Part shown: piece after piece, positions 10,074 through 33,261 of the stretch
Layout of the letters: each line of letters starts with the position of its first letter
Position numbering within the stretch: the first letter of the stretch is position 1
Notes under the pieces: generated by a model
What the model was told of the DNA's origin: nothing
Databases searched by the model: none
What the model saw: the letters and a program-made list of their open reading frames with translations, nothing else
Assembly: GCF_026651875.1 (NCBI RefSeq)
Contig: NZ_CP104067.1
Location: 2,046,001 to 2,110,000, forward strand
Length of the DNA: 64,000 nucleotides
Direction: 5' to 3'
DNA from: Alicyclobacillus fastidiosus
GTDB lineage: Bacteria; Bacillota; Bacilli; Alicyclobacillales; Alicyclobacillaceae
Position numbers and translations under genes: made by a program

Positions 10074-11159
10074 TTGTATCTTCTCCAAAAGTCTCTGTTT
10101 TCCTTTGAAGAGTGGCTAGAAATCGAACCCAGTGAGCGGCTGGAGCTCTTCTTTTCAACACTTGACCTACATCCATATGCCGCAAAGTTGAAGAACTCAT
10201 CACCCCAAGGTGCAAAGCCAATCGACCGAGAAGCAATTCTACGCGCGTTGCTCGTTGCTCCGCTGGAAGGCATCTCGACCTTCACCCGGTTACACAAGCG
10301 TTTAGACGGTGATCTGCGTTTTCGATACCAGTGTGGATTTCGTTTAGATGAACCCGCACTGTCCATTGCGACACTCAGTCGAGTCTTTGGAACGGTCGTG
10401 GGTCAGTGTAAAGAGTCCGGAATCATTGACGGAAGTCATCTTGCGATTGACAGTACAGCTATTGGTGCCTACGAGAAAAAACAGCCGAAATCACGAAACC
10501 AGGAAACGCACAATGCCAACTGGGGTGCGAAATATGACACATTTGGCAACAAGCTCACGTGGTTCGGGTACAAGATTCACCTAGCTGTAGATACAGCCAG
10601 TGAATTGCCCGTCTCACTCGAGGTTACACCAGCGCATGTATATGACGGCGAGATGTCGATTCCATTGATGAAAGATGTCATCGAAAATCGCCATTGGAAA
10701 GTCAAATTTGTCATGATGGACGCTGGATACGACCAGGTAAAGAACTATGAAACTGCCCGTGGTTACGGTGCGCAGGCGATTATTGCACTGAACCGGCGCG
10801 GTGAAAAGGAACCACCTGCCGGGATGACTTCTAACGGCACGCCACGCTGTTCAATGGGATACGACATGGTGTACTGGGGAGCTGACGGCGATAGACTGAA
10901 GTTCCGCTGTCCGCACGCTCTAGGCAAGGTTGATTGCCCACTTGGCACCGCTGCATGTTCCGATTCCAACTACGGAACGGTCGTGAAGAAAAACATTTCC
11001 GAAGATGTACGCCGCTATTCGAACCCTCACCGAAATACGCGAGGGTGGATAGAGCTGTACAACGAGCGCACTAGCTTCGTGCGTCAGGTTCTGGACCTTG
11101 CACAAACGGGGGACGAGGTTTCCCCGTACCGGATTCCTGTGCTGTGTATGGTCAAATAA
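10074..11159 (+). pseudogene. IS1182-like DDE transposase, C-terminally truncated and lacking the catalytic Glu
   Basis: The N-terminal helical domain (residues 1-110, DUF772-like, 'AILRALLVAPLEGISTFTRL') is followed by the RNase H-fold domain. The first catalytic Asp is D126 ('LAIDSTAIGAYEKK') and the second D216 ('MMDAGYDQVKNYE'). The final motif should read Y-x2-R-x3-E. Here 'YNERTSF' is followed by Val336 instead of Glu (GTG for GAG). After residue 337 the sequence no longer resembles the family and stops after 361 residues, against more than 400 in relatives. The last codons contain the 34-base segment also found beside IS110 copy 1. The element is therefore dead and its right end is replaced. 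Confidence 0.82.
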
Positions 11160-11328
11160 AAATGGAGGTTTCGATCATCAGAAATTCCCTGATCTAATCA
11201 TTAAGAAATCCTTGCTGATGTCATCAGGAAATCCCTGATCTGATCTGGAAATTTCCCTGGTGTATCTCTCCTAATTGTGTCATTTGCTTCTTACAATCCT
11301 CTTTGTAGAAATGCGAGGAGGAGAAAGG

Positions 11329-12819
11329 ATGACGATGAGTATGGAGCAGATTCACCGGATCAAGGAACTGCAACTCCAAGAGAAAGGAGCGTATCAGATT
11401 GCAAAGGAATTGGGGCTAGATCCCAAGACCGTTCGGAAATACATGAAGCAGGAGGACTTCTCCCCAAGGCTGCCTGTGCCAGTGTCTAAGCCATCCAAGT
11501 TGGATCCCTACAAGCCAACCATTGATGCATGGCTTCTTCAAGATGCTAAAAATCGGTACAAGCAACGTCATACGGGGAAGCGAGTATATGACCGACTCGT
11601 GAAAAAGTTTCCGGAGTTCAACTGTTCGTACCCGACCGTGAACCGATACGTGACCGCATTTCGTCAACGCCAGCACCTTAGTAAGAAGGGCTATCTTGAA
11701 CTTCAGTGGCATCCTGGAGAGGCTCAGGCTGATTTTGGTGAATGTGATGTGATTGTAAACGGCGTGCGACGCGTTACGAAGTATCTGGTGGTATCTTTCC
11801 CGCATAGCAATGCAGGATTTGTTCAGTGCTTTCTCGGTGAAACTGCTGAATGCTTATGCCAAGGATTAATGGACGTCTTTTATCATATTGAGGGTGTTCC
11901 GTCACGACTTGTGATTGACAATGCCACAGCAGCCGGCAGGCGAATTGGAGAGCTAGTTCGCCTTACACAGTTGTTTAAGCGATTCCAAGCCCATTTCGGA
12001 TTTGAGATTACATTCTGCAATCCGAATAGCGGTCATGAAAAAGGAAATGTGGAGAACAAGGTTGGTTACGCTCGGAGAAATTACATGGTTCCCCTACCAT
12101 CCAAAGTGTCATTGCATGAGTGGAACACTGAATTATTCGAACTATGCGATTTGGATAATAGCCGCGAGCACTACAAGAAAGGAGTACCTATCTGCGAGTT
12201 GTTTGAGAAGGACAAGGAAGCCATGCGAGCACTCCCAAACGCGCCGTTTGAATCTTGCCGATATGGGCATGTAAAGACCAACGGCTATGGCAAGTTCATA
12301 CTTGATGGCAAGCACACTTATTCTTCCTCGCCGCTGTATGCAGACCGGGAGATTATTGTCCGGATCGGCGCACATTTCATTGAACCACTTGATGAAGCGG
12401 GTGACGTTATCTCTCGCCACGAAAGGGAGTTCGGTACAGAGCGGACAGACACAGTCGACTGGTTAACGATGCTAGATCAATTGATTGTAAAACCAGGAGC
12501 ATGGCGAAACAGCCTGATGCGTAGCCAAATGTCCTACGAGGTTCGTGATTACATGGATGAGCAGGACAGGAGTGGGTTACGGCAAGCGTTACGCCTCATG
12601 AAGGATTTGTCTAACCAATATGGCTTGGACGTTGCGGTGACTTCGATACAGGAAGCAATTGTTCGCAAACGCACACAAGGCATTGAGGTCAATGCAGCAG
12701 TTGTTGCGGCTCGGATTGCTCACTACGGTCTGGATACGCCAGGGGAGCCTGGACCCGACATGAGCCAGTATGATGTTTTACTACCCGCATTCGGAGGTGA
12801 AGTGCATGGACCGCAGTGA
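11329..12819 (+). CDS. istA: IS21-family transposase IstA
   Basis: 496 residues. An N-terminal helix-turn-helix ('AYQIAKELGLDPKTVRKY', residues 22-39) recognises the terminal repeats. The rve/RNase H-fold catalytic domain has D135 ('AQADFGEC'), D197 ('LVIDNATAA') and E242 ('GNVENKVGYARRN'). The triad and spacing are complete. ATG 11329 is preceded by GAGGAGGAGAAAGG. The stop overlaps the istB start by 14 bases, so the two are coupled. IstA performs strand cleavage and transfer, with IstB as ATP-dependent target regulator. Nothing suggests inactivation. Confidence 0.92.
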   Translation: MTMSMEQIHRIKELQLQEKGAYQIAKELGLDPKTVRKYMKQEDFSPRLPVPVSKPSKLDPYKPTIDAWLLQDAKNRYKQRHTGKRVYDRLVKKFPEFNCSYPTVNRYVTAFRQRQHLSKKGYLELQWHPGEAQADFGECDVIVNGVRRVTKYLVVSFPHSNAGFVQCFLGETAECLCQGLMDVFYHIEGVPSRLVIDNATAAGRRIGELVRLTQLFKRFQAHFGFEITFCNPNSGHEKGNVENKVGYARRNYMVPLPSKVSLHEWNTELFELCDLDNSREHYKKGVPICELFEKDKEAMRALPNAPFESCRYGHVKTNGYGKFILDGKHTYSSSPLYADREIIVRIGAHFIEPLDEAGDVISRHEREFGTERTDTVDWLTMLDQLIVKPGAWRNSLMRSQMSYEVRDYMDEQDRSGLRQALRLMKDLSNQYGLDVAVTSIQEAIVRKRTQGIEVNAAVVAARIAHYGLDTPGEPGPDMSQYDVLLPAFGGEVHGPQ

Positions 12820-13546
12820 GATACGACTAGAAATCTCACAATACTGCCGACAATTAATCCTGAGTCAGAATGCGGTACGGTTATGCGATTTAGAAGCTAC
12901 GCCAAGACAGGAGGAGTTTCTACATAAGGTGTTCCGGGAGGAATTGGAGCACCGCGAGCGTCAGCGGAGAATTCGTTTATTTCAACGAGCTGCGTTCCCT
13001 GTACGAAAAACGCTGGAGGGGTACGAATTCAGTTCACTTCGCCTGCCCTCTACCTTGTCCCTGGATGAACTGACTTCGTGTCAGTTTGTCCAGGAGAAAA
13101 AGAACCTCGTTCTGTATGGTCCTGTCGGCACTGGTAAGACACACCTTGCCATTGCCTTAGGAACGAAAGCGTGTGAGATGGGAATTGTTACGAGGTTTTT
13201 CACCGCAGCATCCCTGGTGACACGACTGAGCGAGAGCAAACGCGCTGGATCTTTAGAACGCATAATGAAGGAACTAGAAAAGGCTCAGCTTGTGGTCATT
13301 GATGAGTGGGGTTACCTTCCGATGGACCGTGAAGAGGCGCAGCTATTATTTCAAGTGGTTGCAGCTAGTTACGAGAGACGAAGTTTGGTGATCACCACGA
13401 ATCTGGAGTTCTCCAAATGGGGCGGTATTTTCACGGATGACCAGATGGCTGCTGCAATGATTGACCGTCTGGCGCACCATGGACAACTTGTTGTGTTTGA
13501 GGGAGAAAGCTACCGACTAAAACACGCATTGATGCGGCAAAAATGA
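12806..13546 (+). CDS. istB: IS21-family helper ATPase IstB (AAA+)
   Basis: 246 residues from ATG 12806, with GGAGGTG at a 6-base spacing; an upstream in-frame ATG at 12770 lacks this. Walker A is 'GPVGTGKTHLAIALG' (about 105-119) and Walker B is 'VVIDEWGYLP' (about 163-172). This is the DnaC/IstB branch of AAA+ proteins. It binds ATP and DNA, oligomerises and directs IstA to target DNA. The reading frame is full length. Confidence 0.92.
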   Translation: MDRSEIRLEISQYCRQLILSQNAVRLCDLEATPRQEEFLHKVFREELEHRERQRRIRLFQRAAFPVRKTLEGYEFSSLRLPSTLSLDELTSCQFVQEKKNLVLYGPVGTGKTHLAIALGTKACEMGIVTRFFTAASLVTRLSESKRAGSLERIMKELEKAQLVVIDEWGYLPMDREEAQLLFQVVAASYERRSLVITTNLEFSKWGGIFTDDQMAAAMIDRLAHHGQLVVFEGESYRLKHALMRQK

Positions 13547-22486: not shown

Positions 22487-23260
22487 TTACGGATGGTCAC
22501 ACACATATCTCACCAGTTGGTCTATCAACGCAGCTTCCCATTCACGCTTGTCGAAGGTGTGATCGGCGCCTTCCATCAAGTGAACCATAGCTCGGCCGTT
22601 ATATGCCCGTTCTTGATAGCCTATCGCTGCCTCTACAGGTACCACTGCGTCCTCGGTCCCATGGATAATGAGAACGGGCCCTGTGTAGTGGCTTGCGCGA
22701 CGATACACGTCGATTGTCGATAAATCATCCAGGCAGGCATGGCTCACCAAATTCCCGAGGTAGTCATAGTACGGGGCTTCCTTGGTGATGTCCGTGCCGC
22801 TGTCGGTGAGTAAGCCCAATACGATATCGCGAATTTTGCCACCGCCGGGCGCCAGTAGTACGAGCCGACGGATATCCTTTGGACGTGCCCCAGCCACTTG
22901 ACTCGCCACGAGGCCGCCCATGCTAAGGCCTACTACAGAAATATGCGTTGGATCTAGGCGTGGATCCGCCTGAACCCAGTCAAAAATGGCGTGTGCTTCG
23001 GAAATTTCGCCGCTAACCGTCATTTCCTCGAAGTTCCCATCGCTCTCGCCACTGCCGGAAAAATCAAATCGAAAACTCGCTACGCCGACGGACTCTAGGG
23101 CCCGGCAAATCTTGACGAACAAGCGGTGTGGCTCGACACACGTCGCTGCGAATCCGTGATACAACACGACCGCAGGTAGGGGGTGCGTCGCACCATCAGG
23201 CACATGTTCCATCCCGCGTAATATCCGTCCATTGTATTCGAGTTCAATCGCCCTCTGCAT
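22487..23260 (-). CDS. Alpha/beta hydrolase, esterase type
   Basis: 257 residues from ATG 23260, with GGAGGG about 6 bases upstream; an in-frame ATG five codons earlier overlaps the ribosome site. The catalytic triad is visible: Ser in 'VVGLSMGGLVASQ', Asp in 'IIHGTEDAVVP' and His in 'GADHTFDK'. The oxyanion-hole strand is 'VVLYHGFAA'. The order resembles serine esterases of the cinnamoyl/feruloyl esterase and YqkD type. It lies next to and on the same strand as the sigma-54 activator gene, separated by about 80 bases. A link to the divergent Rieske operon is possible but not shown. The substrate is unknown. Confidence 0.85.
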   Translation of the reverse strand: MQRAIELEYNGRILRGMEHVPDGATHPLPAVVLYHGFAATCVEPHRLFVKICRALESVGVASFRFDFSGSGESDGNFEEMTVSGEISEAHAIFDWVQADPRLDPTHISVVGLSMGGLVASQVAGARPKDIRRLVLLAPGGGKIRDIVLGLLTDSGTDITKEAPYYDYLGNLVSHACLDDLSTIDVYRRASHYTGPVLIIHGTEDAVVPVEAAIGYQERAYNGRAMVHLMEGADHTFDKREWEAALIDQLVRYVCDHP

Positions 23261-23338
23261 AAAATTTCCCTCCATGATTGAGTCTCGTTACTCGCTAGTC
23301 CACTTCATTCGCCTCGATGCGCGTGGATGGCGCTCATA

Positions 23339-25060
23339 TTACCGTAGCCCATGCTGCTTCAACTTGCGTACCACGGTGGACTGGCTGACGCCGAGAAGTG
23401 CCGCGACCTCACGCGTGCTAGAGCATTTCGCCAGGGCGGCTGCGTAGATTTCCCGCTCCGATGTGCGCAGGTGGTGTTTCCAGTCATCGGAAAGTGTGGC
23501 GTGTTCACACCGTGGCCTTGCTGATGCAGCGATTACCTCTGGGGGTAAATGGTGTGTCTGAATGATGACGTCGTCCACTGTGATTGCTACATACTCTATG
23601 ATGTTTTCCAACTCACGGATGTTACCTGGCCACTCATATTTGCGCAAGAGCTCCAGGGCGGCCCCATCCAGCACGTGTTCTCCTAGATTGTGTTTATTTG
23701 TGAATTGCGCGAGATAGACCTCGCAAAGCGGAGTGATATCTTCGATCCTCTGCCTGAGCGGCGGAATTTCAATCGGGATTACGTTGAGGCGGTAGAATAG
23801 ATCCGCGCGAAAAGTGCCTTGTGACACCATCTCGCGCAAGTTGCGGTTGGTCGCGGTGATGATACGAGTATCCACGTAGGTAGGGGAAGTCGCGCCGATT
23901 CGCTCAATACGATGTTCCTGTAGTAAATCAAGCAGTTTGCCCTGTAAATTAAGGGGCAGTTCCCCGATTTCATTCAAAAACAGCGTTCCCCCTTGTGCGA
24001 GTTCTACCTTCCCAGGTTTGCCCTCTCGTCGTGCACCGGTGAAGGATCCCCGCTCATACCCGAACAGTTCACTCTCAAGGAGTGACTCTGGGATGGATGC
24101 GCAGTTTATTTCAACCCACGGTCCCTTCGACCATTGACTGATTTGATGGATGTATTTTGCCACGCGATTTTTGCCGACTCCTGTTTCTCCAAGCAAGATA
24201 ACGGACGCATTTGTCCGTGCAACCCGGAGCGCGCGATCCAAACATCGCCGCATTGCAGGACTGTTGGAGACGAATGGGGCCGGTTGCTCTGACGGTGCTA
24301 CCGTGCTCTCAGGCGGAAGCATGGGCCGGCCATTCAATGTGAGGAGTTCCAATTCTGACACATCTTTCGCGTAGGATATCACTCGTTTTATCGATCCGTC
24401 CGCATTAAAGATGGCATTCCCGGTAGAAATCAGACGCCGCCCGTCGATAGTGTTCTGTAGTACTGTCTGCTGCTTGCGATGTCGCAACACCATGGCGGTG
24501 ACGGAGGGATAGAAGATTCGTTGACGTTCGAGATCGAAGATGGACTTCCCGACGAGGCCGCCGACTAAGGGACCGTACATCTGCTCGACTTGATCGTTGA
24601 CCTGCAGGGTAATTCCTTCGCCATCCGTGATGTACCACTCATCCAGAGAGGAATCAATCAGTTCCGCGAGATCACTTTTCTCCTGTTGAAGCGCCCAGAT
24701 ATGGTTTTCGTCCGGACCTTCGGGAAGCCGCAAGCACTCGATGAGTAACCGGTTGGGTCCGAAGATTTCCTTGTGTAGAATGTAGGAGAATCCCTCTGGC
24801 AGCACTAATTCCGCACCCCTTGCCTCGGAGATTGGGGCTGCGGCGGCTTCGGTTGAATCACCGGGAGGTATGTCAGGAAAGCTGTCCACATTGATTCGGG
24901 TGGGATCGTTCGTGTTCGTTCCATTCGCATCGGTACGGAAGTTGGCGAGCACGCTCATCTTAGCTGCCTGGTTGGCCCATTCTAATTTGCCTTCGAGTTG
25001 GACAATTAAAAGCGGGGTATCAAGCGTATTGAGAACGTTGAACAGATTGCTCATCTCCAT
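23339..25060 (-). CDS. Sigma-54-dependent transcriptional activator (PAS - AAA+ - Fis)
   Basis: 573 residues, ATG 25060 with AGAGGTG 8 bases upstream. The N-terminal 250 residues hold PAS-like sensing regions ('LLIVQLEGKLEWANQAAKMS', 'EWYITDGEGITLQVND'). The AAA+ domain has Walker A 'GETGVGKNRVAK' (about 291), the sigma-54 contact loop 'ERGSFTGA' (about 335-342; GSFTGA instead of GAFTGA, a common variant) and 'GTLFLNEIGELPLNLQ'. A Fis-type HTH ends the protein ('TREVAALLGVSQSTVVRKL'). It would bind enhancer sites and drive open-complex formation by RpoN. The divergent Rieske operon has a consensus -24/-12 promoter, so that is its likely target. The inducer is probably the operon's substrate. 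Confidence 0.92.
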   Translation of the reverse strand: MEMSNLFNVLNTLDTPLLIVQLEGKLEWANQAAKMSVLANFRTDANGTNTNDPTRINVDSFPDIPPGDSTEAAAAPISEARGAELVLPEGFSYILHKEIFGPNRLLIECLRLPEGPDENHIWALQQEKSDLAELIDSSLDEWYITDGEGITLQVNDQVEQMYGPLVGGLVGKSIFDLERQRIFYPSVTAMVLRHRKQQTVLQNTIDGRRLISTGNAIFNADGSIKRVISYAKDVSELELLTLNGRPMLPPESTVAPSEQPAPFVSNSPAMRRCLDRALRVARTNASVILLGETGVGKNRVAKYIHQISQWSKGPWVEINCASIPESLLESELFGYERGSFTGARREGKPGKVELAQGGTLFLNEIGELPLNLQGKLLDLLQEHRIERIGATSPTYVDTRIITATNRNLREMVSQGTFRADLFYRLNVIPIEIPPLRQRIEDITPLCEVYLAQFTNKHNLGEHVLDGAALELLRKYEWPGNIRELENIIEYVAITVDDVIIQTHHLPPEVIAASARPRCEHATLSDDWKHHLRTSEREIYAAALAKCSSTREVAALLGVSQSTVVRKLKQHGLR

Positions 25061-25123
25061 TGGGACTTCACCTCTTTTATGTTAGAGTGCGGGAGCTGAT
25101 TTCTCAAAATTCTATCACCTTTT

Positions 25124-25159
25124 GAACCACAATTGGTTCTAAAACTGAACCATTGATTC
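25124..25159. promoter_or_regulatory. Candidate enhancer (UAS) for the sigma-54 activator
   Basis: GAACCACAATTGGTTC (25124-25139) is an inverted repeat with GAACC arms. A second, imperfect copy GAACCATTGATTC follows at 25147-25159. It lies about 160-190 bases upstream of the -24/-12 promoter, the usual enhancer distance, and 64 bases from the activator start. Confidence 0.6.
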
Positions 25160-25315
25160 ACATTTGATTCAGAATGATTGCAAACTTATCTCTGTTGAGC
25201 CCCGGTGAGGCGAGTGATTGGTCCCCTAAAAAATAAAATTTCGATGGCTGATCCAGCGAGATATTGCCTGTGCACAAGCTGTTTTCTCTCTAATTCGGAC
25301 ACATCGGTATGATGT

Positions 25316-25331
25316 TGGCATGAAATTTGCT
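25316..25331 (+). promoter_or_regulatory. Sigma-54 (-24/-12) promoter of the Rieske operon
   Basis: TGGCATGAAATTTGCT matches the RpoN consensus TGGCAYRNNNNTTGCW at every fixed position, with GG (25317-25318) and GC (25329-25330) 10 bases apart. The predicted start is near 25342, about 45 bases before the Rieske ATG. The adjacent divergent gene encodes the matching class of activator. Confidence 0.88.
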
Positions 25332-25388
25332 TGAGTTTAAGTAAAACAGACTATTAACAAGTTCCAATAGTGAGAGGGGACCGTACAC

Positions 25389-26468
25389 ATGAATGTAGAG
25401 CTCAGCAGACCAGAAGTCAGTGCATTCCAGGATGAAAACGTTGACATGACGCTGCCGTACGCGTTGTATGTGGATCCAATGGTGTTGCGTATGGAGTATG
25501 AAAAGATTTTCACGAAGTCTTGGCAGTATGTTGGCCACGTTGCACGACTCAAGAACCCAGGGGATTACATCGCGTGTACGATTGGGAACGAGCCAATTCT
25601 CGTTGTGCGTGATCACGACAATGAGATCCGCGCGTTCTATAACGTGTGCCCACATCGGGGGACAAAGTTGGTTCAGGACAGTGCGGGATCGAAGAAGATT
25701 CTGCAATGTTGTTATCACGGCTGGACGTTCCAGCTGAATGGGAAGCTGCACCAGGCCCCTAACTTTAGGAAAGCACCCGGTTTTTGCGGGGACGACTACT
25801 GCTTAAGACCAGTCCACGTGTCTATCGAGCAGTCACTCGTGTTCGTCAACCTGAGTGAGGACCCGGTACCACTTGCGAAAGAGTTTGCAGATTTCTTCGC
25901 TGATTTGGGTCAATTCCACTTTCTCAACGATTTGAACTTGTATAGCACGGAACAGCGCATCATCAAATGCAACTGGAAGACCTTCATTGACAACTATCTG
26001 GAATGCGATCACTGCCCGATTGCTCATCCCAGCTTCGTCGCCACGCTCGATATGACGAAGTATCAGATCATTAACGCGGACAAGTGCAATATTCAGGGGT
26101 CCCAAGTGAAGGCCAGCCGTCAGGACTTCAATGATGCCGAAGTCCAGGAGGGGCGCTTCTACTGGCTGTGGCCAAACGTAATGTTCACGATTTATCCAGG
26201 GCCTGGGAATTTCCGGTCGATTCAGATGATCCCTGTCGATCATGAAACGACGCTCGGCATCTACTCCGTCTATGTACACGGAGAGGAGCCGACGGAGGAG
26301 CAGAAACAACTGATTGCGTTTGCGAAACAAGTGGCCGATGAAGATGTGGATATCGTGGAGTTGCAGCAGATTGGGCTTGGGTCAAGCGCGTTCAAGCAAG
26401 GCCTGTTGTCGCCGACTGAGCACGGTCTACGTCACTTTCACAATCTCGTCCGCACCGTCCTGAAGTAG
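25389..26468 (+). CDS. Rieske non-haem iron oxygenase, quaternary-amine (CntA/YeaW-like) class
   Basis: 359 residues. The N-terminal Rieske domain has C87-x-H89 ('NVCPHRGTKL') and C107-x2-H110 ('CCYHGWTF') for the [2Fe-2S] cluster. The catalytic domain has 'DNYLECDHCPIAHPSF', with H208 and H213 as iron ligands. The third ligand is probably D319 in 'DEDVDIVE'. E205 occupies the electron-bridging position where most Rieske oxygenases have Asp. That Glu is the hallmark of carnitine monooxygenase CntA and its relatives. These enzymes hydroxylate and cleave quaternary or tertiary amines such as carnitine, stachydrine or glycine betaine. A reductase partner is not seen in the window. The exact substrate is an inference from the downstream genes. 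Confidence 0.85.
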   Translation: MNVELSRPEVSAFQDENVDMTLPYALYVDPMVLRMEYEKIFTKSWQYVGHVARLKNPGDYIACTIGNEPILVVRDHDNEIRAFYNVCPHRGTKLVQDSAGSKKILQCCYHGWTFQLNGKLHQAPNFRKAPGFCGDDYCLRPVHVSIEQSLVFVNLSEDPVPLAKEFADFFADLGQFHFLNDLNLYSTEQRIIKCNWKTFIDNYLECDHCPIAHPSFVATLDMTKYQIINADKCNIQGSQVKASRQDFNDAEVQEGRFYWLWPNVMFTIYPGPGNFRSIQMIPVDHETTLGIYSVYVHGEEPTEEQKQLIAFAKQVADEDVDIVELQQIGLGSSAFKQGLLSPTEHGLRHFHNLVRTVLK

Positions 26469-26534
26469 TACAGTCCACGGCGCTAGGCTGTAGTCACCGC
26501 ATTTCACTGAGTCCTAATTAAAGGAGGCGTTTAG

Positions 26535-27962
26535 ATGAGGGTCGAACAGCGCAGTATCGATTATATCCCGGATGCGGAACGACATGGCAAGGCCCGAGAC
26601 CTGTTCAATATCTGGTTCAGTGCGAACATGCAGCTCACCCCAGTCATGACAGGGGCTGTTGTCGTCTCGCTTGGACTGAACATTTTCTGGGCACTGGCGG
26701 CAGTGATCATCGGCAATATCATTGGTGGCCTGTTCATGGCCACCCACTCTGCGCAGGGGCCGAAACTTGGCATTCCGCAGATGATTCAAAGTAGGGCACA
26801 GTTTGGCGTCGTTGGTGCCATTTTGCCGCTCGTTCTCGTCATGGTCATGTACATCGGATCGGTCTACTATAGTGGACTCCTCGGTGCACAAGCTATTCAC
26901 AGTGCGCTTCATGGGGTGCCAGTGTGGTTGGCGATGATTGTCCTCAATGGTGTCACACTCATTGTCACAACCTTCGGCTACGATTTGATTCATGCCATTG
27001 AGAAATACTTTGCGATTGTCTTTGCCCTCTTCTTTATCCTCATCACAGTGGAGGCTTTTCGGCTGCCTCTTCCGTCTCACAGTTGGTCTGTAAGCGGATT
27101 CAAATATGGTCCATTTCTCATGGCACTGAGCATTTGTACCACCTGGCTATTGACTTATGCACCGTATGTTGCTGACTACTCGCGATACCTGCCAAGAAAC
27201 ACCTCGTCGACAGCGACCTTTACCTGGACGTACGCTGGCGGCGTCCTTGGCACAGCATGGCCCATGATTCTCGGTGTGGTACTGATTGCGGCATCCGCGA
27301 AATTCGGAGATAACCCCACCGGATTCCTTGCGCAAATGGTCGGTCCGACGCTTGCGCCGATTCTTTACTTGGTCGTCGTTCTCGGGATTCTCGGAGTCAA
27401 TGTTCTGAATCTCTACTGTGCATTTATGGCCACCGTCACCACGATTGAGCCGTTTACGAAAATGAAAGTCACGCCGACCAAACGGTTTGTCATGTTAGCC
27501 ATTATCGATGCTGTCTCCACTTATATCGGCATTGTCGGCCAAGGAAGTCTGATCACCATCATGAATGACTTCCTCCTCATGCTGCAGTACATCATGGTGC
27601 CTTGGAGTGCGATCAATCTTGTTGATTTCTACCTCCTGCGCAGGGGGAATTACAGCATTAAGGACATTTTTGATGTTAACGGGAAGTATGGGCGCTTCAA
27701 TTGGATTTGCATCGGTTCGTATCTCGTGACCGTCGCTGCCCAAATTCCGTTTATGAACGTGGCCGGTGTCTATGAAGGACCCATCTCGAAAGCACTCAAC
27801 CATGCAGATATCGCCTGGATTATCGCTTTAATACTTCCTGCTGTCATTTATTACTTTGCAATGAAAGCGAAACTACTTGCAACTGGTGAAATTCAGGAGA
27901 TTCATAAATTCTCCTCCCGCAGCCCGATGGACGTCATAGAATCCACGCAAACAGAAAGGTAG
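26535..27962 (+). CDS. NCS1-family permease (cytosine/purine/allantoin permease type)
   Basis: 475 residues with about twelve hydrophobic helices, ATG 26535 with AAGGAGG upstream. Signatures of nucleobase:cation symporter-1 proteins are visible: 'LFNIWFSANMQLTPVMTGAV' near residue 22, 'SRAQFGVVGAILPL', and 'YVADYSRYLPRNTS' with helix 6 features. It sits 66 bases after the Rieske gene and 8 bases before the dehydrogenase, so it is in the operon and probably imports its substrate. NCS1 members move bases, hydantoins, allantoin and vitamins, whereas carnitine and betaine usually use BCCT carriers. The pairing with a quaternary-amine oxygenase is therefore unusual. Confidence 0.88.
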   Translation: MRVEQRSIDYIPDAERHGKARDLFNIWFSANMQLTPVMTGAVVVSLGLNIFWALAAVIIGNIIGGLFMATHSAQGPKLGIPQMIQSRAQFGVVGAILPLVLVMVMYIGSVYYSGLLGAQAIHSALHGVPVWLAMIVLNGVTLIVTTFGYDLIHAIEKYFAIVFALFFILITVEAFRLPLPSHSWSVSGFKYGPFLMALSICTTWLLTYAPYVADYSRYLPRNTSSTATFTWTYAGGVLGTAWPMILGVVLIAASAKFGDNPTGFLAQMVGPTLAPILYLVVVLGILGVNVLNLYCAFMATVTTIEPFTKMKVTPTKRFVMLAIIDAVSTYIGIVGQGSLITIMNDFLLMLQYIMVPWSAINLVDFYLLRRGNYSIKDIFDVNGKYGRFNWICIGSYLVTVAAQIPFMNVAGVYEGPISKALNHADIAWIIALILPAVIYYFAMKAKLLATGEIQEIHKFSSRSPMDVIESTQTER

Positions 27963-27970
27963 GTATCCGA

Positions 27971-29062
27971 ATGAACTTATATTCGATTGCAGTCATTCCG
28001 GGGGATGGGATCGGCATTGAGGTCGTCCCCGCAGCGATTCAAGTCCTGGACACGGTCGCAGAGATCCACGGCGGCATTCGATTTGACTGGACTCACTTTC
28101 CTTGGGGGTGTGAGTACTACTTACAGCACGGAACCATGATGCCCCAAGATGGAATCGACACGCTAAAGTCCTTCCATCAAATCTTCCTTGGGGCGGTTGG
28201 AATGCCAGGTCTCGTACCCGATCACGTTTCTCTCAGCGGCCTCCTCCTCAAAATCCGCCGCGAACTGGAACAGACCATCAACGTGCGGCCTGCCAAACTT
28301 CTACATGGGATGAAGTCACCGCTCGCGGCGCCCCAGGACTTTGACATCCTCGTGGTACGAGAGAATTCGGAAGGCGAGTATGCCGAAGTCGGCGGGCGGG
28401 TGCACCGGAATGGTGAAGAAATGGCCATTCAGTCCGCCGTATTCACGCGTAAAGCATCGGAACGCGCCATGCGCTACGCATTCACTCAAGCAGCCAAGCG
28501 CCGTGGCCATGTGACGAGTGCGACGAAGTCGAACGGGATCGCATATAGTATGCCTTTCTGGGATGACGTGTTCCGCGAGGTGAGTCAGTTGTATCCGGAC
28601 ATACAGGCGGCAAGCAACCACATCGACGCGCTCGCAGCCTTCTTTGTGATGAAGCCCCATGTGCTTGATGTCGTTGTCGCATCCAACCTATTTGGCGATA
28701 TTTTGACCGATCTCGGTGGCGCCATCATGGGCAGCATTGGCATCGCACCGGCTGCCAATCTCAACGTCGAGCGCACCTATCCGTCGATGTTCGAGCCCGT
28801 ACATGGATCGGCGCCGGATATCGCTGGGAAGGGGATCGCGAATCCGCTCGGCCAAATTTGGACCAGTAAACTCATGCTCGACTTCCTGGGTCATGAGGAT
28901 CTCGGTGAGATCGTCCTAGGAGCCATGGAGGATACCCTGGACGACAACGTGAAGACCGCCGATTTAGGCGGCACTGCGAATCTCAAAGAAGTGACTGAAC
29001 GAGTGATCGAACACGTTAAGCTGCGGGCAGAGAAGGGTGTATCTATCACGAATCGGCTGTAA
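27971..29062 (+). CDS. Tartrate/D-malate dehydrogenase family (beta-decarboxylating)
   Basis: 363 residues, ATG 27971. It belongs to the isocitrate/isopropylmalate dehydrogenase superfamily. 'VIPGDGIGIEVVPAA' starts the protein. 'LLKIRRELEQTINVRPAKL' carries the substrate arginines. 'VVRENSEGEYAEVGGR' is the branch typical of tartrate and D-malate dehydrogenases rather than LeuB. 'ASNLFGDILTDLGGAIMGS' carries the metal-binding aspartates. 'EPVHGSAPDIAGKGIANP' is the NAD site. Such enzymes oxidise and decarboxylate D-malate to pyruvate, with activity on tartrate or isopropylmalate. In this operon D-malate made by the oxygenase and aldehyde dehydrogenase is a logical substrate. LeuB-like activity cannot be excluded by reading alone. 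Confidence 0.87.
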   Translation: MNLYSIAVIPGDGIGIEVVPAAIQVLDTVAEIHGGIRFDWTHFPWGCEYYLQHGTMMPQDGIDTLKSFHQIFLGAVGMPGLVPDHVSLSGLLLKIRRELEQTINVRPAKLLHGMKSPLAAPQDFDILVVRENSEGEYAEVGGRVHRNGEEMAIQSAVFTRKASERAMRYAFTQAAKRRGHVTSATKSNGIAYSMPFWDDVFREVSQLYPDIQAASNHIDALAAFFVMKPHVLDVVVASNLFGDILTDLGGAIMGSIGIAPAANLNVERTYPSMFEPVHGSAPDIAGKGIANPLGQIWTSKLMLDFLGHEDLGEIVLGAMEDTLDDNVKTADLGGTANLKEVTERVIEHVKLRAEKGVSITNRL

Positions 29063-29094
29063 TCTATCACACTACCCACACAGGAGGGCACGTA

Positions 29095-30516
29095 ATGAAG
29101 AAACGTCTTTTCATCAATGGAGAATGGTTGGAAGCGAAACAGTATACAACGCTGGTATCCCCGTTTAGTGGTGAATCTATCGCAGAAATCCCAGTGGCGA
29201 ACGATGAGGAAGTTGAAGCCGCCATTGAAGCGGCCAATGGTGCAAGCAAAGTTATGGCCATGATGCCTGCCCACAAACGCGCAAGTATTTTGGCAAAATT
29301 GGCTGACCTCTTCGAGCAACGCAAAGAGGAAGCAGCGTCCGTGATTGCGTTGGAAGCGGCCAAACCAATCACCACTGCACTTGCCGAAGTGAACCGCACC
29401 ATTTTAACGTATCGATTTGCGGCGGAAGAAGCGAAACGCATCCACGGCGAAACCCTGCGCCTTGACGCGGCGCCAGGGGGGGAAGGCAGAGTTGCTTATG
29501 TGGTGCGCGAGCCACTCGGTGTCATCGGTGCGATCACACCATTTAATTTCCCGATGAACCTGGTCGCACACAAGGTCGGACCCGCCATTGCCTCAGGAAA
29601 TACGGTGGTCCTAAAGCCCGCTTCCCAGACCCCACTTTGCGCTTATTTTCTTGCGGAACTGTTGCAGGAGGCCGGGATTCCTGCTGGTGCATTCAACGTG
29701 GTGACCGGTGGCGGACGAACCGTTGGTGACAAGCTCGTCACGGATCCGCGCATCAAAATGGTTACCTTTACGGGTAGCCCGGAGGTTGGAATCGGGATCC
29801 GGAATAAGGCTGGATTAAAACGCGTCACCCTAGAACTTGGTTCCAATGCAGCGGTCATCGTCGATGAAGGCGTGAACATCGACAAAATCATACCGCGGTG
29901 TGTAAACGGCGCGTTTTCGTTTCAAGGTCAAGTCTGTATCTCCTTGCAGCGCATCTACGTTCACGAAACCCTTTACGACGTGTTTGTGGAAAGATTGGTT
30001 GCTGAAACGGAGAAATTGAATATCGGCGATCCGCTCGATCCGAAAACAGACGTGTCCGCTTTGATCTCCTCTGCAGACGTAGACCGCACTTTAAACTGGA
30101 TTGAAGAGGCCAAACAGTACGGAGCGAAGGTGGCGATAGGTGGCAAGGCAGAGGGGAACATCCTTCATCCGACCGTGATTTTGAACGCGAAACCGCACAT
30201 GAAGGTTTCATGCCAAGAGGTGTTTGCACCAATTGTACTCATCAACAAAATCTCGTCTGTCGAAGAGGCCATTGGACTTGTAAATGATTCTCGCTACGGT
30301 TTGCAAGCTGGCATCTACACCGAGAACGTTCATACGGCGCTGGATGCTGCCGAAAAATTGCATGTCGGCGGGGTGATGATTAACGATATTCCAACTTTCC
30401 GCGTCGACAACATGCCATACGGCGGGGTCAAGGAAAGCGGTGTGGGACGCGAAGGAATCAAATATGCGGTCGAGGAAATGACGGAAATGAAGCTGGTCGT
30501 CTTCAATCGCAATTAA
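29095..30516 (+). CDS. NAD(P)-dependent aldehyde dehydrogenase
   Basis: 473 residues, ATG 29095 after an AGGAGGGC site. Catalytic C281 is in 'FQGQVCISLQR' and general-base E247 in 'TLELGSNAAVIV'. The cofactor site shows 'GVIGAITPFNFPMNLVAHK' and 'FTGSPEVGIGI'. The type resembles lactaldehyde/phosphonoacetaldehyde and YcbD-like dehydrogenases rather than betaine aldehyde dehydrogenase. It is the fourth gene of the sigma-54 operon. If the Rieske enzyme cleaves carnitine, malic semialdehyde would be its substrate and malate its product. The aldehyde cannot be identified from sequence. Confidence 0.9.
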   Translation: MKKRLFINGEWLEAKQYTTLVSPFSGESIAEIPVANDEEVEAAIEAANGASKVMAMMPAHKRASILAKLADLFEQRKEEAASVIALEAAKPITTALAEVNRTILTYRFAAEEAKRIHGETLRLDAAPGGEGRVAYVVREPLGVIGAITPFNFPMNLVAHKVGPAIASGNTVVLKPASQTPLCAYFLAELLQEAGIPAGAFNVVTGGGRTVGDKLVTDPRIKMVTFTGSPEVGIGIRNKAGLKRVTLELGSNAAVIVDEGVNIDKIIPRCVNGAFSFQGQVCISLQRIYVHETLYDVFVERLVAETEKLNIGDPLDPKTDVSALISSADVDRTLNWIEEAKQYGAKVAIGGKAEGNILHPTVILNAKPHMKVSCQEVFAPIVLINKISSVEEAIGLVNDSRYGLQAGIYTENVHTALDAAEKLHVGGVMINDIPTFRVDNMPYGGVKESGVGREGIKYAVEEMTEMKLVVFNRN

Positions 30517-30837
30517 GTTGAAATATGGACTACCCCCAAAGCCGTATCATGTAGCTTACTGAACATGAGTTGTCGCACAGGTAGCGTGATTGGCTACCTG
30601 TGCGGCGCTATGAGAAAGGAGAGTATAGAAGTACAACGAATCACTCGTACGTTCCAGTCTCTTCCCCTTCGACCCAAGGCAATCCTCAATGGTCCCCAGC
30701 AATAAGGCCTCATCCCACTATGCAAGCACAATGGGAAAACCACCCGCAAACAATCGAATCCTGTATAACTCAGAGTTAGGTCAGGGAAAACTCATACAGT
30801 ATAAGGTGTGAATATCACCTGAATAGGAGAATTATGA
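30517..30837 (+). other. Intergenic region with a perfect 11-bp hairpin
   Basis: GCACAGGTAGC and GCTACCTGTGC at 30575-30603 form a perfect stem 60 bases after the operon end. There is no T-run, so it is a weak terminator or an RNA-stabilising element. No ORF is seen. The promoter of the next MFS gene should lie in 30700-30830. Confidence 0.5.
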
Positions 30838-32049
30838 ATGAGTTCATCCTCAAATACAAAGCGGCGTCCTTTATTGAAGGATTTTCACTTGCCAGAGAGT
30901 AGTGTGTGGAAACTGTCTGGTGCTCACGTTTTAAATGACTTGATGACCACAGGACTTGTTCCCGCCTTGTTGCCATTGTATAAAGCAGCCTTTCACCTTT
31001 CCTATATAGAGACAACCTTAATCGTTTTAGTATCGTACATCACTTCTTCCATCATTCAGCCCATTTCTGGTTTGATCACGGATCGGCATCCGTTTGTTTG
31101 GCTTCTACCCATTGGAGTTTTCTGTACCTGTTTCGGTCTGGCGATAAGCGGGATTGTCCCAAATTATGCATTACTGATGGTATGCATTGCCCTATCCGGA
31201 TTCGGATCGGGTGCTTTTCACCCAGAAGCCTCACGCGCGACGAATCTCGCCGCAGGGGAGAACAGAGGATTGACGCAGTCAATTTTTCAAGTAGGAGGAA
31301 ACTTAGGTCAGGCAGTTGGCCCCTTAATGATGCCACTTTTTATCATTACTTTGGGCTTACACGGATTGTTGTGGTTTCTGATTGCTGCCATCCTTGCCTT
31401 TCTGCTCACTTGGTGGGTACTCCCGCGATATAAACAGCAATTACAGAAAGGCGAAGCAAAAAAAGCCGTCGCAGAAGGGAAACACAGCCGTGTCGGGATT
31501 ATTCTACTCGTCCTCGTCGTGGCTATCCGCTCGTGGGCTCAAATTGGAATAGTGAGTTTTTTGCCGTTCTATTACTTGGAACAACACATTCCACTGGGCA
31601 CAGGAGATATGATGACCTTTGTGTTCCTTTTCGCAGGGGCAATAGGTACACTCATCGGAGGAACCATTTCGGACAGAATCGGACGCAAATGGTTGCTAAT
31701 GGGATCGATGATTCTAACCATCCCCTTCGCTTGGTTGTTGCCCACCATGCATGGTCTCAATGCTGGTGTTGACTTGTTCTTCTTTGGGTTTTTCATCCTG
31801 TCATCCTTCGCGGTGACAGTCGTTTACGGCCAGATGATGCTGCCAAACAACATCGGTTTAGCCTCGGGGTTAATGATTGGTTTCGGTGTTGGAGCAGGTG
31901 GAATCGGAGCCACTTTGATGGGATGGATAGCAGACCATTACGCCGTCTCAACAGTGCTGGATTTCATTGCCATATTACCGATCATTGCAGCCATCATTAC
32001 GTTCTTTCTACCAAACGATAAAAAGCTGGTACGCTCGAGGCTCAAATAA
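30838..32049 (+). CDS. MFS transporter, fosmidomycin-resistance (Fsr) type
   Basis: 403 residues with twelve predicted helices. ATG 30838 has AGGAG 8 bases upstream; an ATG 4 bases earlier is in another frame. 'LSGAHVLNDLMTTGLVPALL' in helix 1 is characteristic of the Fsr/YfnC group. 'GSGAFHPEASRATNLAAGEN' is the group's conserved loop after helix 4, and 'GGTISDRIGRKWLL' the second MFS signature. Members export drugs such as fosmidomycin or handle small organic acids. It is followed by a broken MFS gene and a class II aldolase, so an import role for an aldolase substrate is possible. No operon link to the preceding gene is apparent. Confidence 0.85.
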   Translation: MSSSSNTKRRPLLKDFHLPESSVWKLSGAHVLNDLMTTGLVPALLPLYKAAFHLSYIETTLIVLVSYITSSIIQPISGLITDRHPFVWLLPIGVFCTCFGLAISGIVPNYALLMVCIALSGFGSGAFHPEASRATNLAAGENRGLTQSIFQVGGNLGQAVGPLMMPLFIITLGLHGLLWFLIAAILAFLLTWWVLPRYKQQLQKGEAKKAVAEGKHSRVGIILLVLVVAIRSWAQIGIVSFLPFYYLEQHIPLGTGDMMTFVFLFAGAIGTLIGGTISDRIGRKWLLMGSMILTIPFAWLLPTMHGLNAGVDLFFFGFFILSSFAVTVVYGQMMLPNNIGLASGLMIGFGVGAGGIGATLMGWIADHYAVSTVLDFIAILPIIAAIITFFLPNDKKLVRSRLK

Positions 32050-32538: not shown

Positions 32539-33261
32539 GTGCTGAATGAAGCGTCTATGTGCGAAAAATTGGCGGTAGCTTGCCGGATTCTCGCAATGGA
32601 AGGATTGGTCGATGAAATTCTCGGACATGTCAGCGTCCGCGTCCCAGATACGGATGAAATGTTGATTCGTTGCCGCGGACCGTATGAATGTGGAGTGGCC
32701 TATACACAATCGGACGCGATTCAGCGGGTGACATTCGAGGGGGGAGGTGCGAAACACGGGTACCACGTGCCTAAGGAGCTCCCTATCCACTCCGAAATAT
32801 ATAAAGCTCGGCCCGATGTGACTTGTGTCGTGCACGCCCATCCACCAGAGGCGCTGATCTGTGGCATCGCGGAGCTCGAATTTCGGCCGATCTTCGGCTC
32901 TTTTAACATCCCCGCCATGCGGTTGGCGCTGGAGGGAATTCCTGTGTTTGGGCACTCGTATCTAGTCACGCGTCCAGATTTGGCGAAACCGTTCATCGAC
33001 GCGATGGGGGACAAAGACGTCTGCGTCATGCGTGGGCACGGGATCACTGTCACCGGCCGTTCTGTTGAAGATGCGGTGGTGCGGGCACTGAATTTCAATA
33101 CGCTCGCGAAGGTCACTTTGCAAGTCGCACAGACAGGCCGAGAGGCCCGGGCGATTTCGGAGGAAGACATCGCAGAGCTGCCGGATCTCGGGCAGACGTT
33201 TAATGAGGAGTGGGTTTGGCGGTATTATGAGCGCAAGCTCAAGCAGTTAGAAAGAAATTAA
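32539..33261 (+). CDS. Class II aldolase/adducin-domain protein
   Basis: 240 residues, GTG 32539 with GGGAGG 8 bases upstream. The zinc-site histidines are visible in 'CVVHAHPPEALICG' (about residues 95-108) and 'VMRGHGITVTGRSVEDAV' (about 160-177). 'EILGHVSVRVPDTDEMLIRC' is the N-terminal signature. The family includes fuculose- and ribulose-phosphate aldolases/epimerases and hydroxy-aromatic decarboxylases. No phosphate-binding pattern is clear, and the residues around RGHG resemble the decarboxylase-like branch. The neighbouring dead MFS gene of phthalate/hexuronate type is compatible with either sugar-acid or aromatic substrates. Confidence 0.82.
   Translation: MLNEASMCEKLAVACRILAMEGLVDEILGHVSVRVPDTDEMLIRCRGPYECGVAYTQSDAIQRVTFEGGGAKHGYHVPKELPIHSEIYKARPDVTCVVHAHPPEALICGIAELEFRPIFGSFNIPAMRLALEGIPVFGHSYLVTRPDLAKPFIDAMGDKDVCVMRGHGITVTGRSVEDAVVRALNFNTLAKVTLQVAQTGREARAISEEDIAELPDLGQTFNEEWVWRYYERKLKQLERN

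Follow-up and report, generated by a model that had tools for sequence, protein, structure and literature searches.

What does an operon degrade that combines a Rieske oxygenase, an NCS1-family permease, a tartrate/D-malate-type dehydrogenase and an aldehyde dehydrogenase behind a sigma-54 promoter? The question is raised by a locus of Alicyclobacillus fastidiosus, which we analyzed within a stretch of 64,000 nt (NZ_CP104067.1, positions 2,046,001 to 2,110,000). This whole stretch is referred to as the window, and coordinates are given in its own numbering unless another locus is named. We conclude that the locus is probably an operon under sigma-54 control that serves the catabolism of L-carnitine, or of a quaternary ammonium compound very similar to it.

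Layout, conservation and control of the operon

The operon consists of four plus strand genes, spaced 66, 8 and 32 bases apart according to their open reading frame (ORF) coordinates. They encode a Group V Rieske oxygenase of 359 aa with a CntA-like signature (25389..26468; Pfam Rieske and Ring_hydroxyl_A), an NCS1-family permease (26535..27962), a tartrate/D-malate-type beta-decarboxylating dehydrogenase (27971..29062; Pfam Iso_dh) and a lactaldehyde-dehydrogenase-like aldehyde dehydrogenase (29095..30516; Aldedh 2.4e-163). The gene for a sigma-54-dependent activator with a PAS domain, an AAA+ domain and a helix-turn-helix motif lies divergently on the minus strand (23339..25060; Sigma54_activat 2.1e-65, PAS_9, HTH_50). 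An earlier account of this DNA, hereafter the sequence-only reading, had listed these five ORFs with their strands and tight spacing, and all of them are in place. Three elements were absent from it: the sigma-54 promoter TGGCATGAAATTTGCT of the -24/-12 type on the plus strand (25316..25331, score 14/15), the palindrome GAACCACAATTGGTTC (25124..25139), a perfect 6-4-6 inverted repeat and candidate activator-binding site, and the gene for an alpha/beta hydrolase of 262 aa behind the activator (22487..23275, minus strand; Pfam Hydrolase_4 2e-18). No terminator-like site was found at 30300-31000.

Relatives of the locus were collected by a scan of GTDB species genomes (best 80 of 590 stretches, 577 relatives), a sample skewed toward close relatives, and by a plasmid search. 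The same-family search covered 41 genomes, the window's own included. We tabulated 51 Bacillota loci, comprising 45 of the best 80, five same-family loci and a Priestia megaterium plasmid; the remaining 35 of the best 80, a second Bacillota group and other phyla, were excluded from the table. Forty-nine of the 51 fall inside a 50-row oxygenase clade, the window counted, and two with split oxygenase frames (L081, L085) were added by identity. Gene counts in these loci refer to 7.5 kb around the oxygenase, with score limits that we set ourselves.

Oxygenase orthologues of 72-98% identity are present in five other genomes of the same family, and in all five the activator, oxygenase, NCS1 and dehydrogenase genes occur together. 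The hydrolase gene lies beside the activator in four of these loci, and an adjacent intact aldehyde dehydrogenase is found in two (G007, G032). Among the 51 Bacillota loci a sigma-54 activator homologue accompanies the oxygenase in every case, a D-malate/tartrate-type dehydrogenase in 48, and an aldehyde dehydrogenase in 47 (a count that includes a 212-aa piece in L039) plus one of succinic semialdehyde dehydrogenase (SSADH) type. Since four genes recur in all same-family loci and the core in 51 Bacillota loci, the grouping is not a product of chance. In one same-family locus (G030, L040:1574-6494) several ORFs that follow the dehydrogenase downstream share a short recurring unit in their translations, resembling a CRISPR-type array.

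The activator with its Sigma54_activat domain, the -24/-12 promoter and a single rpoN gene in the genome characterize the operon as sigma-54-dependent. Of the 52 control regions, one from the window and 51 from the tabulated loci, 48 reached a promoter score of at least 14, versus 4 of 2600 shuffles; with the control regions cut differently, 45 of 52 remained at p≤0.05. The palindrome recurs with 2-3 mismatches in the five same-family loci, a comparison without a chance control. The sequence-only reading had taken sigma-54 control to be unusual for this pathway. Among the loci studied here it is the rule, and it is unusual only against the LysR-type regulators of Acinetobacter and Klebsiella and against DmlR of E. 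coli, which we take to be LysR-type as well.

The oxygenase and the two dehydrogenases

The closest PDB structure to the oxygenase is carnitine monooxygenase (6y8j, 2.8e-62). The CntA residues Y203, E205, C206, H208, C209, H213, F216, Y225, Y292 (=Y295) and D319 (=D323) are all kept, so that the protein has an aromatic residue at CntA position 203, the bridging Glu, the His-His-Asp iron ligands and the Cys206/Cys209 pair. E205 with H208 and H213, on which the sequence-only reading had relied, is seen in our alignments too. Tyr203, the pi-cation residue, distinguishes the oxygenases of Group Va (for carnitine, choline or benzalkonium) from those of Group Vb (PMC7948474), and the Cys pair characterizes Group V (PMC10952381). 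One pocket string is common to 38 of 95 oxygenase rows, including rows from loci with BCCT, SSS and NCS1 carriers (L073 for the last), and the window's pocket differs from it solely by a gap at aligned position 247. This shared string across carrier types argues for one substrate and interchangeable carriers.

In a tree of 43 of the 95 rows, 15 Bacillota oxygenases are monophyletic (100/99) and stand apart from the aromatic-ring oxygenases, with another Bacillota group as their sister (95/94). A grouping with the aromatic-ring oxygenases, named by the sequence-only reading as one of the outcomes that would overturn it, was rejected with the rows used (HcaE of E. coli, L002 and L020; p-AU, the p value of the approximately unbiased test, 4e-7), L002 and L020 being same-family paralogues taken as aromatic-type without a family-call annotation. 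Joining the Bacillota oxygenases with the wider nine-row CntA group was not rejected (p-AU 0.068). The test groups were named after a quick tree was known, and p-AU values thus serve as guides; that quick tree dropped two fragments (L049_26, L085_8959). Stc2, on a long branch, is the only Group Vb row, and some other rows are long-branched too. GbcA was rejected as an identity for the window's oxygenase (157 bits vs a cut-off of 670).

The sister group in the 43-row tree belongs to another Group V clade from Bacillota, which comprises 18 rows (L082-L084, L086-L092, L094, L096-L099, L101, L107 and L095:140). There the Rieske gene is mostly followed by one for a protein of ~470 aa, in L083 an amino-acid permease nearest S-methylmethionine permease, and ferredoxin-NADP reductase and ferredoxin genes occur there as well.

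The beta-decarboxylating dehydrogenase passes the tartrate dehydrogenase models NF006048 (602 bits, cut-off 501) and TIGR02089 (557, cut-off 470), has tartrate dehydrogenase/decarboxylase 3flk as structural match (1.5e-109) and is 50% identical to its counterpart in the Acinetobacter baumannii cnt operon record. Identity as LeuB, a doubt attached to the sequence-only reading, does not agree with the family models (TIGR00169, 232 bits against a cut-off of 353). The aldehyde dehydrogenase scores 543 bits with NF040648, under the cut-off of 650, and is 64% identical to the P. megaterium operon enzyme and 36% to the A. baumannii one. It belongs to a subfamily other than the malic semialdehyde dehydrogenase (MSA-DH) of A. 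baumannii, and we can assign it malic semialdehyde activity only putatively. In that MSA-DH, Arg166, Arg284 and Ser447 bind the substrate carboxylate (PMC11353897).

A D-malate-type dehydrogenase together with a quaternary-ammonium oxygenase and an aldehyde dehydrogenase would be near-diagnostic for carnitine: malate-type beta-decarboxylation after aldehyde oxidation points to a 4-ammonio-3-hydroxybutanoate, i.e. carnitine. According to the A. baumannii study, the conversion of carnitine to trimethylamine and malic semialdehyde, then to D-malate and on to pyruvate, was rebuilt in vitro and in E. coli, and the stereocentre is left untouched, hence D-malate and the need for an extra dehydrogenase (PMC11353897).

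From the gene identities, conserved linkage, promoter and residue signatures observed here we infer the substrate, the direction of transport, the electron donor, the inducer and every reaction of the following route. The activator would sense the substrate via its N-terminal part and drive the promoter at 25316, and the NCS1 permease would import the substrate. The oxygenase would hydroxylate the carbon beside the trimethylammonium group, giving trimethylamine and malic semialdehyde, and would receive its electrons not from CntB but from a ferredoxin-NADP reductase and a ferredoxin whose genes lie elsewhere. The aldehyde dehydrogenase would then yield D-malate, which the tartrate-type dehydrogenase would decarboxylate to pyruvate. 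Release of carnitine from acylcarnitines is a possible role of the hydrolase at 22487, as proposed for the alpha/beta hydrolase of the A. baumannii cnt operon (PMC11353897). A CocE-type esterase gene stands near 14 of the 51 oxygenases; this CocE/NonD-type hydrolase of ~585 aa is found near Bacillaceae operons (L053, L056, L073, L077 and others; the model was run on the L073 protein). It represents a third esterase type by such clusters and is a possible acylcarnitine esterase.

Carriers, electron supply and competing explanations

The permease is assigned to NCS1 by Transp_cyt_pur (1.6e-62) and by a profile match to Mhp1 (2jln, 1.4e-12), whose alignment is too weak for a pocket comparison; its score of 139 lies below the TIGR00800 ncs1 cut-off of 353. 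NCS1 carriers typically transport nucleobases, hydantoins and allantoin. We know of no earlier NCS1 protein for a quaternary ammonium compound, and a limited targeted search of the literature found no NCS1 carnitine carrier described. The gene sits between oxygenase and dehydrogenase in all five same-family loci, and in Neobacillus (three loci, two species) it comes after the dehydrogenase. The window's protein is 79-82% identical to those of N. cucumis and N. pocheonensis (85% for one fragment; both N. pocheonensis loci have split frames), while the oxygenases share 52-54%, which suggests that the carrier gene moved between such operons. The sequence-only reading was right to call the carrier unusual, with eight such loci among the 51 besides the window; its presence in these relatives also means that it is not unique.

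The carrier genes among the 51 loci are BCCT in 25, SSS in 19 (a tally that takes in weak paralogues, e.g. a 27% one in L041), NCS1 in 8 (7 in the table, 8 with L040, where a longer antisense ORF masked the gene) and OpuAC-type ABC in 2 (OpuAC 2e-61; the L043 ATPase exceeds the betaine/proline/choline proV cut-off, 354.5>326.6). The BCCT and betaine-type ABC importers in the relatives' clusters add support to carnitine as substrate.

More distant NCS1 relatives were seen in other surroundings. One of 63% identity (L183:5849-9940, G032) has as neighbours an agmatinase-family ureohydrolase and a homologue of the window's sigma-54 activator (41% identity). Another of 52% (L191:3729-9505, G022) is encoded divergently from urocanase (which passes the hutU model); also present there are a formimidoylglutamase-like gene that narrowly misses its cut-off and an imidazolonepropionase-like gene recognized by translation only. 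These neighbours suggest that distant members may carry small nitrogen compounds with a cationic group.

Regarding electron supply, the sequence-only reading had noted that a reductase is lacking, and a search of the window's genome indeed gave no CntB orthologue (best match 30%, E 4.6e-11). Within 7.5 kb of the oxygenase no CntB of at least 80 bits was found in any of the 51 loci, a weak 29% match near L071 falling below this limit. A ferredoxin-NADP reductase gene is located near 24 of the 51 oxygenases, in 23 cases between activator and oxygenase, and a ferredoxin gene near 12. The reductase of the P. megaterium cluster matches ferredoxin-NADP reductase 2 (3lzw, 536 bits). The window's genome holds two enzymes of this kind (55% and 52%), and the latter adjoins an FdxA-like ferredoxin (67.4>65) on the 205-kb contig 2 (L190:4301-5619). 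An own-genome ferredoxin-NADP reductase with a ferredoxin would be the likely electron supply, the FdxA-like protein being a possible donor. No Fer4_13 ferredoxin was found in six genomes, in a search that matched 5 of 14 controls.

CntB-like genes of 39% and 37% occur in two same-family genomes (G016 and G032). In G032 the reductase gene (L186:6827-9329) lies by genes for haem-dependent oxidative N-demethylase (HODM)-like and DmmA-like proteins (Pfam), and a similar arrangement is present at L187:6539-9008, Pfam having been run on L186 only. Given the neighbours seen in L186, both genes look like parts of a dimethylamine monooxygenase; such a cluster is probable in G032 and perhaps present in G016.

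Several observations weigh against the carnitine route or parts of it. Three of seven CntA pocket residues are changed in the oxygenase (N270 to T, Y315 to A, F319 missing), CntA F258 aligns with F257 in a nine-row alignment but with G255 in the 95-row alignment, and a position of the Bacillota oxygenases as direct sister of the three CntA/YeaW rows was rejected (p-AU 0.0014). In the window's aldehyde dehydrogenase the letters aligned with R166, R284 and S447 of MSA-DH all differ, and three same-family loci have no adjacent intact aldehyde dehydrogenase (G015, G016 and G030, with G015 keeping a 212-aa piece only). In Aneurinibacillus tyrosinisolvens (L047) the enzyme is 50-51% identical to A. 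baumannii MSA-DH and keeps the three residues. As the same residues hold the carboxylate in human SSADH (PMC11353897) and the L047 protein passes the SSADH subfamily model (665>646), it indicates a semialdehyde acid of four carbons, of which malic semialdehyde is not the only candidate. Of the BCCT carriers one was scanned (L049); it comes closest to the glycine betaine model (599 vs a cut-off of 650) and falls well short of the model for the carnitine antiporter (299 vs 541). NCS1 proteins of ~82-83% identity exist in two genomes without an oxygenase orthologue (G004, G013). Finally, no reductase gene is present in the operon, and no ferredoxin of the P. megaterium type was found in the window's genome; a search with the P. 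megaterium ferredoxin itself gave no match in eight genomes. The residues that L047 has in common with SSADH and the likeness of the scanned BCCT to glycine betaine carriers make carnitine slightly less likely, and another quaternary ammonium compound slightly more so.

Candidates for such a compound are choline, gamma-butyrobetaine and betaines of an unusual kind; the dehydrogenase would then act on a related 2-hydroxy acid, for instance tartrate. The three deviating pocket positions, the NCS1 carrier in place of a BCCT, the family model named for tartrate dehydrogenase and the SSADH match in L047 would all fit, and CntA also accepts gamma-butyrobetaine (PMC7948474). However, the product from gamma-butyrobetaine would be succinic semialdehyde, and choline would not lead to malate, which leaves the dehydrogenase of 48 of the 51 loci without a role. 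A tartrate route, for its part, needs a dihydroxylated betaine. To our knowledge this is not a common substrate, and we consider a different quaternary compound clearly unlikely. It is very improbable that the oxygenase is an aromatic-ring enzyme, or a demethylating Rieske enzyme of another type, in an operon that breaks down aromatic or heterocyclic compounds and takes up a heterocycle through NCS1: the usual NCS1 cargo, eight other Rieske matches in the genome and the NCS1 relatives by agmatinase and urocanase genes speak for it, while the tree test with the aromatic-type rows used, the Group Va features Y203 and Cys pair, and the BCCT and betaine ABC carriers of other loci speak against it.

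A passenger role for NCS1, with carnitine imported by a different protein, is somewhat unlikely, though it would be compatible with the other steps of the carnitine route. The homologues in G004 and G013, together with a second copy of ~82-83% identity elsewhere in G016, would be in line with this. Against it stand the constant position of the gene between oxygenase and dehydrogenase in the same-family loci, 8 bases before the latter in the window, and its position after the dehydrogenase in the Neobacillus loci, as if moved between such operons. The conversion of carnitine via D-malate to pyruvate, as proposed by the sequence-only reading, thus stands as the best-supported explanation by the Group V signature, the dehydrogenase models and the relatives' importers; what does not stand is a direct sister relation of the oxygenase to CntA/YeaW.

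Elsewhere in the window, a Class II aldolase-like protein (32539-33261) passes the model of 3,4-dihydroxyphthalate decarboxylase PhtC (302 bits, cut-off 200). Its gene is flanked by an MFS gene and by genes for a probable solute-binding protein and a PIG-L-like protein, these two recognized by their translations, and looks like a separate unit. Transposase-like and IstA/IstB-like ORFs were recognized at 10074-13546 by translations only.

Comparison with known carnitine systems

Trimethylamine derived from carnitine attracts interest in medicine and environmental science, and its producers are surveyed by way of cntA/cntB. In their census, Rath et al. 2017 did not accept 34 Bacilli sequences as true cntA, given their distance and the absence of a syntenic cntB, and described Sporosarcina newyorkensis as lacking cntB (PMC5433236). 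The S. newyorkensis operon is listed in a 2024 paper as one of two types that might yield substantial trimethylamine (PMC11353897), so that a Bacillota carnitine operon has already been suggested in print. In the literature searched we found no description of a sigma-54-controlled or ferredoxin-reductase-fed Bacillota carnitine system. It is quite possible, if not yet probable, that Bacillota hold a separate, overlooked aerobic carnitine-to-trimethylamine system, with a Group Va oxygenase that acquired or retained specificity for carnitine outside the CntA lineage, fed by a ferredoxin reductase, switched by sigma-54 and, in one branch, importing via NCS1. If this is true, Bacilli sequences such as the excluded ones may in part come from genuine carnitine degraders that obtain their electrons in a different way, the presence of cntB would be the wrong test for such organisms, and a betaine-carrying NCS1 would widen the substrate range of the family.

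Like the window's operon, the cnt operon of A. baumannii (cntA, cntB, msadh, mdh, bcct, hyd) has a Rieske oxygenase with bridging Glu and Tyr203 and clusters its gene with those for an aldehyde dehydrogenase, a D-malate dehydrogenase, a hydrolase and a carrier (PMC11353897). It differs by a LysR-type regulator, a BCCT and CntB, where the window has sigma-54, NCS1 and no linked reductase; the aldehyde dehydrogenases belong to different subfamilies, and the oxygenases are ~35% identical. In E. coli, dmlA-yeaV-yeaW-yeaX likewise brings together a D-malate dehydrogenase, a putative carrier (YeaV, presumably a BCCT) and a CntA-type oxygenase, but has the YeaX reductase and, unlike the window, no aldehyde dehydrogenase in the cluster. 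The Group Vb enzymes Stc2 and GbcA are also Group V oxygenases, Stc2 with the Cys pair, and Stc2 has Asn at position 203 in place of the window's Tyr. The clusters of P. megaterium plasmid pMLY91_1 and of Bacillaceae relatives share the divergent sigma-54 activator; in the plasmid the oxygenase is 53%, the aldehyde dehydrogenase 64% and the tartrate-type dehydrogenase 50% identical to the window's, ferredoxin-NADP reductase and ferredoxin genes are included, and an SSS/DUF3311 carrier pair replaces NCS1. Taken together, the operon appears to combine known chemistry, for which the genes make carnitine a well-supported substrate, with an arrangement in Bacillota that we have not found described, and its new points are the NCS1 carrier and the electron supply.

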